Shown here: positions 53,806 through 64,000 of the stretch, one piece after another | Numbering within the stretch: position 1 is the first letter of the stretch | Layout of the letters: each line of letters starts with the position of its first letter | Assembly (NCBI GenBank): GCA_009780915.1 | Contig: WQZD01000010.1 | Coordinates: 1-64,000, forward strand | Direction of reading: 5' to 3' | Origin: Propionibacteriaceae bacterium | GTDB taxonomy: Bacteria; Actinomycetota; Actinomycetes; Propionibacteriales; Propionibacteriaceae | Length of the DNA: 64,000 bases | Position numbers and translations under genes: made by a program | The notes under the pieces: generated by a model | Databases searched by the model: none | Told to the model about the DNA's origin: nothing | The model's input: the letters and a program-made list of their open reading frames with translations, nothing else

Positions 53806-56800
53806 TCAGCGGTGCTTGGTGACGTTCCGTGAGATCCCGGGCGCTTGTTCGGCAGTGGTCGACATGGAGGTCGAGGACGCGCCCATGGCGGAGGTGACCA
53901 GGATCGGGGAGGTCGACACCGTCCCCATCCCGGGCTCCAGCCAGGTGACGACCACCTCGTACGTCCCCGCGACGGGGGCGGTCAACCGTGCTGAATAGGT
54001 GCCGGGCTGGGTCTCGGTGAAATCTGTGATCTGGACGTCGGCCCCGACACCGGGGTCGGCACCGCCGGACGAGGTGATCGCCGCTGAGATCAAGGACCCC
54101 TGGCCCGTCAGCGGCGCCGACGCGGAACCGCCCACCCTGGCGACCACCGACGCGGTCAGGATGTAGCTCTCCAGCCCGTCGCCGACCGCGGCCAAGGGGT
54201 CCGGGGTCACGGACGTGCTCAGCGTGGACGACCATGCCGGGATGAACGTCACATGGGCCGGGCTGTCGACGAGATCCCGGACGAGATGGTCGGCGCCGGT
54301 GAAGGTCACACGCACCGGGAAGATGCCGACTTGGTGGGAGACGATCGTCGCGGTGTACGTCCCGTCGCCGTTGTCCACGAGGGGGGCGGCCACCTGGGTG
54401 CCGGTCGTCGTGACCCCCAGGTCCGAGACCAGACCCGTGACGCGCCCGCCATTGACGTCCCTGGCGTAGATCGTGACCGTGTAGGCGTCCACGCCGTTGG
54501 CGAGTCGAACGCCCTGGGTCATGGAATAGCTCAGTGTCGAGGGGTCGGGCGGGGCGCAGCCTGGAAGGAAGGTCACGGCGACGGGAGAGCCCGCGAGAGG
54601 GCGTAGGACCCCGCCGTCCACCACCTGGGCCGACACGGTGACCGTCTCGGAGGTCTGGTCTGCGACAGTGGCCGACGCGACGCCCGACTCGTCGGTCGTC
54701 ACGGACGCGGACGACACCGTCGCTTCGCCGTCGACGCTCAGACGGACCACAGCGTCCGACAGGGGGCGCCCGGCCTGGTCCTTCACCTGGACCGACACGG
54801 TGGTCGCTCCCGGTCGGTCGCACGGGATGGTCACCACCTGCGACTCCACGGCCAGGGACGACTGCCAGGCGTCCGGGGTCCCCGGGCGGAACACCAGGTC
54901 CTGGGGCGTCTGCTCCACCGGGATGGTCTGCCCCGTGTCGAGGGTGACCCACGCCTGGAGGGCCACCGTCTCGGCGTGACGATCGGTGACCAGGACATCG
55001 GCATGGCCCTGTCCGTCCAGGGTCGCCGTTCCGCTCGTCAGGGCGGCGGCGCCATCCACCTGGAATCCCACGTCGAGGCCGGCGACAGGGGTCCCGCATC
55101 CGTCGATCCAGTCGACCGACACCTGGTACGCGGTGGCGCCGTCCGCGGGAACCGGCGCGTCGCCGACCTGCGAGACGGTGGCCACCGGGGCGGACGACGG
55201 CATGGGGACGGCCACGAGGCCCATCGGGACCTCGACAGGGGAATCCGCGAGGTCGCGCCACACGCCATCGACCAGCACCTGGGCCGACACCTCCGGTCGG
55301 CCGCCCGCCAGCAGAGCCCCCAGATCGACGACCGCTGTGAGGTTTGCCACACCGTCGTCGTCGGTGGTCGCTTCGGGCTGGATGGCCACCAGCGGGCCGG
55401 CCACGCTGAACCGCACATTCGCCGCCGGCACCGCACGGCCGGCCGTGTCGAGGATGGTCGCCTGCGCGGTGACCTCGGTGGTGGAGATCTCGGGGGCCGC
55501 CCAGCACGGGGGTATCGTCACCTGGATCGGGTCCGAGGTGACGACCAAGGTCGACCCCTGCGGATCGACAACCGGCTCGGGCACCTCGACGATGGTCGGA
55601 TCGGAGAGGTTCCCCGCCTGGTCCGCCGTGGTGAGTTGAACCGTGGCCCCGTGCTCCATGACCCCCCGGGGGACGTCCAGCGACCAGGCGCCTGTGGCGT
55701 CCACGGGCGCCGAACCGATGAGGGCGCCACCCGAGCCGCGGACGGAGACCGTCCACCCCACACCGACGACACCAGGCGCCGACCCCTCGATCCGGGCGGC
55801 CGTGGCCGAGTGGACGACAGGGGCCGAGGGACGCGCGGTCACCAAGGGGACCGACCTCGCCACGGAGGGATTCCCCGCGGCGTCGACGGCCACGGCGGTG
55901 ACGACCCCGGACTGCGCGCCGGGCGGAGTGGGCGCCATCCACTGGCCCGAGCGCGGCGTCACATGGACCACCGAATGGTCAGGCCAGGTGAGGGTGATGG
56001 TGACGCCCGGGTCGCTCGTGCCGGAGACGATGGAGGAATTGGCGGTCTGGATGACGGGGGCGTTCGGGATGGTGGTGTCCAGCCAGGCCGTCGCGTCGGG
56101 ACCGTCGCCCTGGGGGCCGACGCCTGTGGCCGTGACGGGGCCGGACGCCATTCCCGCAGGAGTCGGCGCCGACCAGGACCCGTCCGGCGCCACGGGCACG
56201 GGAGCGGACACGGTCGCGTCGGGCCACGTCAGTCGCAGCGTCCAGGTCGGGTCGACGGGCTCCGGCAGGGCTCCGGCGACGATTCGAGCATTGGCCGTGT
56301 CGACTTGGGGGGCGGGCGGGAGAAGGCCGGCCTGGTCGACGACGACGTACCCCGAATACCCCGTGTGCGTGGCGGGATCGGTGACAGCCACCTTGATCGC
56401 CAGGCTGCGCGACGCCGCGTCGCCGTTGGCCGCCAGGTGGATGCGCATCGTCGCGGGCCCGACGCCCCCCGAGGGCTCGGGAGCGGCCACGACACCCGCC
56501 GGAACACCCGTGACCTGCCACCGATCCTGGGCGTCGAGCGGGAGGTGGACGGTGATGGCGGCGCCCGCCGACCCCGTGTCCGCGCTCGCCAGGGTGGCGC
56601 CGTCGTCGGTCCAGCACACGCCGTCCGCGTACCGGGTCAGGACGGGGCACGTGACGACCGTCCCCGTCCCGTCGTACACACCCGGATCGGCTGGGACCAG
56701 GTCATAGATCGCCACCTCAGGCCACTGCGAAGCGAAGTCGATCACCACCTGCGTCCCGTCCGGCTCGTCGATGGTCGCCGAGGAGGACGTGAAACTGAAG

Positions 56801-58317
56801 GGCTGCTCCTCCCCCACGCGATGGGCGAGGACCCAGGACATGACCGCGCGCTCGTCCAGGACGGAGTCCGCCTGGACCATGGCGGCCAGATTGGCCCCGT
56901 CGCTGAACAGGTCGGCCAGGCTCAAGTCGGCGCCGGTGTCCAGACGCGCGTTGAGGACCGCCGCCACCGGGGACGGGCCCGACGTGGCGCCTGACGGCAC
57001 GCTGACGAGCGACAGGACGTTGCCGAAGTCGGCCTCCACGGACAGGGACAGAGTCAGGGTCACCGGGGTGCTGCGCAGGGACGCCATGTCGCCGGTCGGC
57101 AGGCACGCCTGCCCCGAACTGAGGCGGTCCGTCCCCCATGCCTGTTTCAGGTAGGCGTCCTGCCTGTCACGGAAGGTGGCCATGAGGGCGTTCTCGACAT
57201 CCGTGTCGGCCAGTCCCGAGATACGGGCCCGCTGCACCTGGGCGCAGTGGGGAATCGCTGTCGTGTCCGTCCTCGCGCTCACCAACTCGGTCGTCCACGT
57301 GACCGTGACGGGGTTCACGTCGAAGGTCTGGCCATCACTGGCCAGCTCCGACGGAGACGAGGAGATCGCAGCCGGGACGTCGGGCGTGGCCGTGGCCGTC
57401 ACCGGCGATCCGAGGGGTTGGAACCCCGCTCGCTCAGTCACGGATCGCCCCTGGGCGGACAGCAGGGATTGAGCCAGGACGCGTGCCGGGGACGTCGAGG
57501 CGTCGGCGTGGTCGATGACGATGGCCAGAGACGAGGTCAAGGGATAGCGCCCCGACTGCACGGCAGACGCCGACGGCGCCACGCCGTCGACCCCGATCAG
57601 GTGGATCCCCTGGCCTTCCAGGTCGGTCCAGTCGGACCAGATGGCGTTCACGTAGTACCCGTACGCGTACCCGATGGCGCCGTCCTGCCCGGTGAAGATC
57701 GCTGGCGCGTCGATGGGACCCGTCGGCCCGGGAGTGCGCTGGAGGGGGGCTGGAGCCATGGCCGTGGCGCCCATGACCAGGTCGGTCATGGCGGCCTGTG
57801 AGGCGGAGTCCGATCGTTGCTGGTACGCGGTGATGGGACCCGGCGTCCCTCCCACCTGGGCCCAGTCGGTGATCGCGCCGGAGTAGATCTGACGCAGTTG
57901 GGTCTGGGACAGGGAGGTCACCGGGTTGTCCGCGCCGACCAGGAAGAAGAATCCTTCCGTGGCGAGGGGGATGACCTCCAGGTCCATCCCCGCCTCGCGG
58001 GCGGCGTCGAGTTGGGACGTGGTGGGCGCCGGCACGAGGATGAGGTCGGCGTCGCCGACGATCAGGCGGCGGTACGCGTCGTCGGTGGAGGTGAAGCTCA
58101 TGGAGGAGAGGTCGGCGATGTCGCCCAGGGACGCTTGGCCGTACGCCATGGCCAGGGTGTACGCCTCAGGGGACCCGTCGATGCTGACGACGGACAGCGG
58201 TGACGTGACGGGATCGGCGGCGAATGCCTTCGGCGCCGCCAAGCCCGCCATGGCGAGAGTGAGACTGGCCGCGCACACACCGCAGAAGGTGCGCCAGCCG
58301 CGAGCCCTCATGGCCAC
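53806..58317 (-). CDS. Giant secreted PstS-like / DUF3298-like / Ig-repeat surface protein
   Basis: 1503 residues from ATG 58317. The signal peptide (~1-34, ending KAFAAD) leads to a periplasmic-binding-protein-like domain (~36-300; SLSQTQLRQIYSGAITDWAQVGG and GAIGYAYGYYVNAIW are PstS hallmarks). A DUF3298/RsiV-like segment (~320-560; DTGADLSLADLFSDG) follows. The remaining ~900 residues are tandem bacterial Ig-like and invasin-type (Big_1) domains with repeats such as PVSGTSDPGV-type turns and TTDDDGVANLTAVV. No clear sortase motif or membrane helix ends the chain, so anchoring is unknown. Probably a ligand-sensing adhesin (inference). Confidence 0.82.
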   Translation of the reverse strand: MAMRARGWRTFCGVCAASLTLAMAGLAAPKAFAADPVTSPLSVVSIDGSPEAYTLAMAYGQASLGDIADLSSMSFTSTDDAYRRLIVGDADLILVPAPTTSQLDAAREAGMDLEVIPLATEGFFFLVGADNPVTSLSQTQLRQIYSGAITDWAQVGGTPGPITAYQQRSDSASQAAMTDLVMGATAMAPAPLQRTPGPTGPIDAPAIFTGQDGAIGYAYGYYVNAIWSDWTDLEGQGIHLIGVDGVAPSASAVQSGRYPLTSSLAIVIDHADASTSPARVLAQSLLSAQGRSVTERAGFQPLGSPVTATATPDVPAAISSSPSELASDGQTFDVNPVTVTWTTELVSARTDTTAIPHCAQVQRARISGLADTDVENALMATFRDRQDAYLKQAWGTDRLSSGQACLPTGDMASLRSTPVTLTLSLSVEADFGNVLSLVSVPSGATSGPSPVAAVLNARLDTGADLSLADLFSDGANLAAMVQADSVLDERAVMSWVLAHRVGEEQPFSFTSSSATIDEPDGTQVVIDFASQWPEVAIYDLVPADPGVYDGTGTVVTCPVLTRYADGVCWTDDGATLASADTGSAGAAITVHLPLDAQDRWQVTGVPAGVVAAPEPSGGVGPATMRIHLAANGDAASRSLAIKVAVTDPATHTGYSGYVVVDQAGLLPPAPQVDTANARIVAGALPEPVDPTWTLRLTWPDATVSAPVPVAPDGSWSAPTPAGMASGPVTATGVGPQGDGPDATAWLDTTIPNAPVIQTANSSIVSGTSDPGVTITLTWPDHSVVHVTPRSGQWMAPTPPGAQSGVVTAVAVDAAGNPSVARSVPLVTARPSAPVVHSATAARIEGSAPGVVGVGWTVSVRGSGGALIGSAPVDATGAWSLDVPRGVMEHGATVQLTTADQAGNLSDPTIVEVPEPVVDPQGSTLVVTSDPIQVTIPPCWAAPEISTTEVTAQATILDTAGRAVPAANVRFSVAGPLVAIQPEATTDDDGVANLTAVVDLGALLAGGRPEVSAQVLVDGVWRDLADSPVEVPMGLVAVPMPSSAPVATVSQVGDAPVPADGATAYQVSVDWIDGCGTPVAGLDVGFQVDGAAALTSGTATLDGQGHADVLVTDRHAETVALQAWVTLDTGQTIPVEQTPQDLVFRPGTPDAWQSSLAVESQVVTIPCDRPGATTVSVQVKDQAGRPLSDAVVRLSVDGEATVSSASVTTDESGVASATVADQTSETVTVSAQVVDGGVLRPLAGSPVAVTFLPGCAPPDPSTLSYSMTQGVRLANGVDAYTVTIYARDVNGGRVTGLVSDLGVTTTGTQVAAPLVDNGDGTYTATIVSHQVGIFPVRVTFTGADHLVRDLVDSPAHVTFIPAWSSTLSTSVTPDPLAAVGDGLESYILTASVVARVGGSASAPLTGQGSLISAAITSSGGADPGVGADVQITDFTETQPGTYSARLTAPVAGTYEVVVTWLEPGMGTVSTSPILVTSAMGASSTSMSTTAEQAPGISRNVTKHR

Positions 58318-62317: not shown

Positions 62318-62428
62318 TGTGATGGGTGAACCTCCGCAGCGTTTCTGTGATCATTCTAGCGCCCTCGGCGGCGCCCTACCGTCCGCCCACACGAATGGTG
62401 TGCGGGCGGACCCAGTAAGATGCTCGCT

Positions 62429-63118
62429 GTGAACCAGAGCGCGGCGCGTGGCCCGAAGTACTACGACCTGATCGTGGCCGGTTTCTGTGCCATGCTCTTG
62501 ATCGCCAACGTCGCGGCGACCAAACTCATCGCTGTCGGACCGGACTGGTCGCCCTTCGGGGTCCACATCCTGCCCCTCGTCTTCGACGGCGGGGCCATCA
62601 CCTTCCCGCTCACCTATGTGCTGGGCGACTGCCTGGCCGAGGTCTACGGATTCGCGAAGGCTCGACGCGCGATCGTCATGGGGTTCGTGGTCTCCGTCAC
62701 GGCCAGCCTCGTCTTCTTCCTCGTCGACATCGCCCCCCCGGACGCGAGTTGGGGCAACCAAGAAGCATGGACGTCCGTGCTCGGGCTGGTCCCCCGCATC
62801 GTGGCGGGCTCCCTGGCCGGGTACTTCGTCGGCCAACTGTTGAACGCGAAAGTCCTGGTCAAACTCCGCGACCGGGCACGCCCCGGGTCCCTGTGGTTCC
62901 GCCTGATCGGCTCGACCGTGGTCGGAGAGGCCGCCGACACCCTCCTGTTCTGCACCATCGCGTACGCCTTCATCGTCGACTGGGGCACCCTCGGCAACTA
63001 CATCGGGGTGGGGTACGTGTACAAAGTCGGCCTCGAAGCCGTCCTGCTGCCCATCACCTTGCGCGTCATCCCCTGGCTGAAGCGCCACGAATGGACCGAC
63101 ACCACCCCTGTGGCGTGA
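62429..63118 (+). CDS. yhhQ: Queuosine precursor transporter (YhhQ/VUT family)
   Basis: 229 residues from GTG 62429; ATG 62420 is in frame but overlaps the TAAGAT box (62416-62421), which lies seven bases before the GTG and suggests a leaderless message. Six or so membrane helices are present with the family motifs ANVAATKLIAV, FPLTYVLGDCLAEVYGFAKARRAIVMGF, LWFRLIGSTVVGEAADTLLFCTIAY and YKVGLEAVLLPI. It imports preQ0/preQ1 or queuine. The stop abuts that of the convergent reverse transcriptase (TGATCA). Confidence 0.92.
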   Translation: MNQSAARGPKYYDLIVAGFCAMLLIANVAATKLIAVGPDWSPFGVHILPLVFDGGAITFPLTYVLGDCLAEVYGFAKARRAIVMGFVVSVTASLVFFLVDIAPPDASWGNQEAWTSVLGLVPRIVAGSLAGYFVGQLLNAKVLVKLRDRARPGSLWFRLIGSTVVGEAADTLLFCTIAYAFIVDWGTLGNYIGVGYVYKVGLEAVLLPITLRVIPWLKRHEWTDTTPVA

Positions 63119-64000
63119 TCACTGGGCATCGTCACCCGCAGATGCGCGTTCGCATCGCAGCGAATCGCAGAGCTGAGACCTCAAACCATACGTGTGGCCG
63201 TGCTTGAGGTGTGCGAAGTGCGCGCTTACCCTCTGCCCCACGTCAGAAGCAGTGAGTTCTCCGCGATTGTGCCTGCGAACCATCCCTGCCATGCCACGCT
63301 TCAAACCGGGTTTCTTACCGCTCGCAAGCCGACGAACAACCTTCCCCTGCGGAGTCTGATGAAAATGGAAGCCCAGATACGTGACCCCTTGGCTCAGCGA
63401 GGTGATCTGAGTCTTGGAGTTGAAGTCAAGTCCCAGACACTTGGCCACGGCACGCATCTGCCGCAGACAGTCACGGAGCATGTCGCGGGACTCATGAACA
63501 ACGACCATATCGTCCATGTACCGAGTGTAACCACGCAGTCGCAAACCTTCTTTGACTAGCCGATCAATAGGATCCAGATAGAGAAGCGCCAGCCATTGAC
63601 TCGTCTGATTGCCCAGGGGAAGCCCCATCCCCGGTTGACTGTGGTACGACTCCATGATCACTCGAAGCAAGTCCACCACCTCAACCTCTGGAAAGATCCG
63701 CTCCACCTGTTTCAGCAAGACATCATGCCGGACATTGTCGAAGTAATGACGGACGTCCACTTTCAGCGCATAACCCACGGAACCAGTGGCCCGATACGTC
63801 TCGGCCATGAAGCGCGTGAGTCGCCCCATGGCGAAGTGGGTGCCCTTGCCCAGACGGCACGCGGCATTGTCATAGACGAGATGCCTGTCGACGACAGGCC
63901 CCAGTAGATTGTCACAAAGGCTGTGCTGCACAACCCTGTCTCGGTAAGCAGGCGCCGAAATGAGACGCCGTTTAGGTTCAAAGACCTCGAAAACTCTGTA
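63119..64000 (-). CDS. Reverse transcriptase, DGR-like, 5' end beyond window
   Basis: Open to the right edge in frame (the last in-window codons read YRVFEVFEPKRRLISAPAYR); the GTG at 63931 is internal. Palm motifs in order are LKVDVRHYFDNV (first catalytic Asp), GMGLPLGNQTSQ (motif 4 of LGxxxSQ form, the hallmark of diversity-generating retroelement enzymes, in place of QGxxxSP), YTRYMDDMVVV (catalytic YMDD), LDFNSKTQI and YLGFHFH. A basic thumb (RRLASGKKPGLKRGM) and HLKHGHTYGLRSQL end the chain. GC (~58% in a sampled line) is lower than in yhhQ. No template or variable repeat is visible inside the window. An Abi-like or other unclassified RT remains possible. Confidence 0.85.
   Translation of the reverse strand, partial: YRVFEVFEPKRRLISAPAYRDRVVQHSLCDNLLGPVVDRHLVYDNAACRLGKGTHFAMGRLTRFMAETYRATGSVGYALKVDVRHYFDNVRHDVLLKQVERIFPEVEVVDLLRVIMESYHSQPGMGLPLGNQTSQWLALLYLDPIDRLVKEGLRLRGYTRYMDDMVVVHESRDMLRDCLRQMRAVAKCLGLDFNSKTQITSLSQGVTYLGFHFHQTPQGKVVRRLASGKKPGLKRGMAGMVRRHNRGELTASDVGQRVSAHFAHLKHGHTYGLRSQLCDSLRCERASAGDDAQ

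Follow-up and report, generated by a model that had tools for sequence, protein, structure and literature searches.

A complete chromosomal diversity-generating retroelement in a Propionibacteriaceae bacterium, with its variable repeat in the DUF6273 domain of a putative membrane-anchored NTPase

The window analysed here is a stretch of 64,000 nucleotides, positions 1-64000 of a contig (C10) of 86,528 bp; 22.5 kb of the contig lies beyond it, and coordinates above 64000 continue the window numbering. At the right edge of the window, an intact open reading frame (ORF) of 293 codons on the minus strand (63119..64000) encodes part of a reverse transcriptase (RT) and runs off the edge. On the contig, the upstream end of the gene lies at ~64180-64201, with an uncertain GTG start and a full length of ~354-360 aa. 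The original prediction held this RT to be of the type found in diversity-generating retroelements (DGRs), and the analysis supports it. The motifs LGNQTSQ and YMDD are present; profile searches matched the RT to RVT_1 (E 6e-20) and phrog_1423 (E 1e-100); and the best match among solved structures (PDB) was the DGR RT of phage BPP-1 (8ub7, E 9e-31). In a tree of 30 RTs, the protein belonged to a DGR clade (support 96/97) that also holds the RTs of BPP-1 and of phage DGRs, and those bearing the PQG...SP motif of group II type branched outside this clade. Its nearest supported set comprised 13 rows, namely same-genus RTs together with RTs of Bacillota and Betaproteobacteria (47-51% identity). 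A placement with Abi/UG or group II enzymes thus fails. Identity as a group II, Drt or AbiA enzyme was likewise rejected from model scores (group_II_RT_mat, 99.7 bits against a cut-off of 300; Drt3a, 64 against 200; AbiA, 25 against 250).

The RT gene is convergent with yhhQ, which encodes a queuosine precursor transporter (62420..63118, plus strand; TIGR00697, E 2e-30) and lies outside the DGR. The tail-to-tail arrangement noted earlier was confirmed: the two stops adjoin exactly, without overlap, in TGATCA (63116-63121). The GC content of the RT gene is 55.6%, about 10 points below the 65.8% of yhhQ, as had been noted, while tgt, rsmE and dnaJ have 68-72%. The cassette is chromosomal and sits between the queuosine genes yhhQ and tgt, an interval (63119 to ~69400) that holds the DGR and a GH20 hexosaminidase gene. 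We compared this interval with that of relatives from a genus sample of 19 genomes, one per species and including the window genome. The yhhQ and tgt ORFs converge in G003, their stops ~44 bp apart with nothing between them; ABC-transporter genes separate the two in G006 and G002, and GntR/ABC cargo follows yhhQ in G001 (cargo named by eye). By this comparison, the yhhQ-tgt interval is a variable insertion site in the genus, which supports the earlier suggestion that the RT gene is the end of an inserted element; yhhQ would form the left border of the cassette, as judged from the relatives. A repeat search around the cassette revealed no repeats marking mobile-element ends. Further to the left in the window, a 1503-aa protein (53806-58317, minus strand) has a phosphate-binding-like N-terminus followed by repeated Ig-like domains, as judged by eye.

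The template repeat (TR), accessory protein and target were expected to the right of the window, and all are present on the same contig, within 4.3 kb. The cassette has the order target-avd-TR-RT, with all parts on the minus strand: a spacer RNA between TR and RT (64202-64392), the 118-nt TR (64393-64510), the Avd gene (64547-65032; phrog_3206, E 2.6e-19) and the target gene (65029-68208; 1059 aa), inside which lies the variable repeat (VR), a 118-nt repeat copy (65233-65350). The RT, Avd and target ORFs are all intact. NCBIfam and Pfam Avd models also match the Avd ORF, both under their cut-offs. Compared with 200 shuffles, the spacer between TR and RT has the better fold (z -3.6); its AGGAA...TCC motif is kept in eight relatives. 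No Rfam family matched within the cassette.

The TR/VR pair was detected by a neutral repeat search blind to DGRs, and it is the adenine-biased near-repeat pair that the original prediction had proposed to look for. The two copies are 92% identical. They differ at 10 of 118 positions, and at nine of these the TR has one of its 18 adenines (hypergeometric p = 5e-8). From TR to VR, the adenine changes comprise seven A>G, one A>T and one A>C. The tenth difference is a C>T three bases from the 3' end; small TR/VR differences near this end occur in known DGRs too. The TR adenine codons are mostly AAC/AAT, which are unable to become stops, and the 11 variable codons allow ~4e10 amino-acid combinations without stops. 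A genome-wide search of the window genome found no further TR or VR copies. At the level of sequence, a complete chromosomal DGR is demonstrated, with its cassette, A-directed divergence and domain order; by every testable feature (RT clade and motifs, TR/VR pair, Avd, VR in a target ORF) the locus is a DGR.

The predicted C-type-lectin-type target was found, and it is neither an adhesin nor a tail fibre: from the N-terminus, it has about six transmembrane (TM) segments, a P-loop NTPase and a DUF6273 domain carrying the VR. A published account describes DUF6273 as C-type-lectin-like and as a domain targeted by DGRs in phages (PMC10743442). The TM region (67525-68208, minus strand; residues 1-228) comprises about six hydrophobic segments, and the loops expected to be cytoplasmic carry positive charges. 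The Walker A motif (67267-67290, minus strand) spans residues 307-314. The DUF6273 domain (65224-65718, minus strand; residues 831-995) scores above cut-off, and the VR occupies residues 954-992 within it, leaving 67 residues between the VR end and the C-terminus, which is less usual for a VR. For the NTPase region, AAA_16 reached 31.6 against a cut-off of 32.6, NACHT 13.6 bits and nSTAND3 11.9 bits. No PADLOC model matched the target, and no recognisable N-terminal effector domain was found, the N-terminus holding TM segments only. Sequence searches against solved structures gave no meaningful matches for the NTPase, DUF6273 or Avd regions, and in 394 genomes of the class the TM-NTPase half had only weak, short matches. 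A hydrophobicity scan found no membrane-crossing segment after residue 228; the VR domain is therefore placed on the side of the NTPase, which must meet ATP, and the VR-bearing sensor would lie in the cytoplasm.

DGR-type RTs like that of the window were found in four of the 19 genus genomes (G000, G003, G008 and G012, the window genome counted), and DUF6273 in six. G008 carries a target-avd-TR-RT cassette with a 1201-aa NNH6-PNP-NACHT-DUF6273 target, in the VR of which 18/20 changes are at adenines (p 2e-11). The same architecture, split over two contigs, occurs in G003 with 19/19 VR changes at adenines (p 9e-15), and 21/23 changes are at adenines in a second G003 target on another contig. 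Since the G003 contigs C43 (L045:1-119) and C112 (end of L077) share 119 identical end bases inside the TR region, the assembly must have broken within the DGR. The TR of G012 differs from its cis target at adenines only (20/20), from a NACHT-DUF6273 gene in trans at 26 positions (21 adenines, p 5e-12) and from a TIR-DUF6273 gene in trans at 37 (22 adenines, p 8e-8); the trans p-values are optimistic, as these alignments were chosen by an adenine-tolerant score. In the same scan, other DUF6273 genes scored 12-19, compared with 30-101 for the TR-matching ones. The TIR-DUF6273 gene on G012:C188 (L102:1480-3057), with a variable segment diverged at adenines from a TR on a different contig, is a possible hypermutated TIR receptor.

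The NACHT domains of these relatives score above or near cut-off, and their targets overlap the window target in the DUF6273 region only; the variable DUF6273 module thus appears, by sequence, to have been shuffled between NTPases. In G008, a KAP-NTPase-DUF6273 protein matches the anti-phage QatA / PDC-S20 models, and the adenine-tolerant scan found no TR resemblance in it. NACHT, KAP (Qat) and TIR defence domains are thus fused to DUF6273 in this genus, whereas the window protein matches none of their models. We know of no bNACHT, KAP or TIR defence protein that is retroelement-diversified via DUF6273. In G003, some ten short DUF6273 ORFs also form an array, none of them TR-like (C62:997-18259; L086, L092, L097, L101 and neighbours); these were rejected as VRs of the G003 TR, with scores of 12-13 compared with 72-101 for the real VRs. 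The 79%-complete genome G009 has DUF6273 proteins (L088:1-1968 and L100), one with NACHT, and no DGR RT was found there.

Outside the genus, the targets found for related RTs (L027, L031, L033, L034, L036 and L038) mostly have leader-like N-termini, and several have fn3 or cadherin-like domains; their exported location was judged by eye from the N-termini. None of these six targets has a P-loop. Three betaproteobacterial genomes (L028, L030, L032) have closely similar DGR-type RTs, with no TR/VR pair within reach. In the sample of 394 class genomes, DUF6273 occurred in one, the window genome itself. A phylum sample of 396 genomes held nine others with an RT passing E 1e-25 (28-34% identity), none listed as the same class. 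These data fit a DGR that was acquired horizontally and later re-fused to NTPases, the direction being what we infer.

By homology to BPP-1, the element would act by mutagenic retrohoming. The TR RNA would be copied by the RT together with Avd, random bases would go in opposite template adenines, and the mutated cDNA would replace the VR. The outcome would be variation at 11 codons of the DUF6273 sensor in a membrane-anchored P-loop NTPase. Ligand binding by the cytoplasmic sensor might then switch the NTPase and elicit cell death or a response at the membrane level, much as in defence of the STAND/NLR type. We consider it reasonably probable that the target is an NLR-like (STAND-type) defence protein whose cytoplasmic sensor the DGR diversifies, a reading in which present activity, topology, ligand and defence output are what we infer.

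The target might instead be a membrane receptor for adhesion or for nutrient or partner recognition, with an NTPase for transport or signalling and no role in defence. Cellular DGR targets are mostly membrane-bound binding proteins (Roux 2021, PMC8144416), and the exported-looking fn3/cadherin/DUF6273 targets outside the genus point the same way. We find this unlikely, given the cytoplasmic side predicted for the VR domain and the fusion of this module with NACHT, KAP and TIR in genus relatives. Less likely still is a decayed or silent DGR, whose VR was diversified formerly and is now fixed. The VR has changed at 9 of 18 adenines, fewer than the 18-20 of 31-35 seen in relatives' cis VRs; seven of the nine changes are A>G, and one non-adenine change lies near the 3' end. 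However, all ORFs, the YMDD motif and the TR are intact, and partial adenine change is normal for a homing event. RT relatives do occur in 148 phage records (best identity 39%), but a phage-borne DGR within a prophage is highly improbable, as the flanks are housekeeping genes and the target is absent from phage and plasmid records.

The Bordetella phage BPP-1 DGR (bRT, bAvd, Mtd) resembles the window DGR in its homologous RT, Avd, A-directed TR/VR changes, C-type-lectin-type target and spacer RNA between TR and RT; unlike it, the window DGR is chromosomal, its target is a membrane NTPase rather than a tail fibre, and its VR is internal, with the 67-aa tail behind it. The tentaclins of phages nd4/nd12 (PMC10743442) and gut Bacillota DGR targets share the DUF6273 VR domain, with RTs 39-51% identical, but these targets lack an NTPase and are either phage receptor-binding proteins or fn3/cadherin proteins that look exported. 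DGR-diversified STAND NTPase-CLec proteins have been reported (Dore 2024, PMC10907252), and DGR-linked NTPases whose lectin sensors are of FGE type, some of which carry TM segments like the window target, have been described mainly in multicellular bacteria (Dore 2024; Kaur 2021). In the clade 5D STAND/CLec sensors of Thiohalocapsa PB-PSB1, for which a conflict role was proposed, an NTPase is likewise fused to a VR-bearing lectin-type sensor. The window DGR probably works like the STAND-sensor DGRs. They differ in that the VR domain is of FGE type there and DUF6273 here, the host here is actinobacterial, the window RT is nearest to gut Bacillota DUF6273-type DGRs, and the window target has its six or so TM segments. 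The window protein, with an NTPase not assigned to NACHT/STAND, is a candidate member of this sub-kind.

A broader proposal, which we regard as tentative, is that the genus keeps a set of intracellular receptors open to hypermutation. A DUF6273-type DGR gained by horizontal transfer would have shifted from exported binding proteins to NLR-like receptors of the NACHT, KAP, TIR and TM-NTPase kinds, and a single template would diversify several receptor genes simultaneously. That the pairing recurs here with a different variable domain in an actinobacterial lineage, while the same RT group serves exported-looking proteins elsewhere, points to repeated recruitment and opens the idea to testing by strain comparison. 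In conclusion, DGR-diversified STAND sensors are already known, and what is new here is a variant with a DUF6273 variable domain in an actinobacterial genus. Hypermutation of an NLR-like sensor, if true, would give bacteria a counterpart of receptor diversification; earlier proposals of it concern multicellular bacteria whose lectin sensors are of FGE type, and the present case would involve a different variable domain and an actinobacterial lineage.
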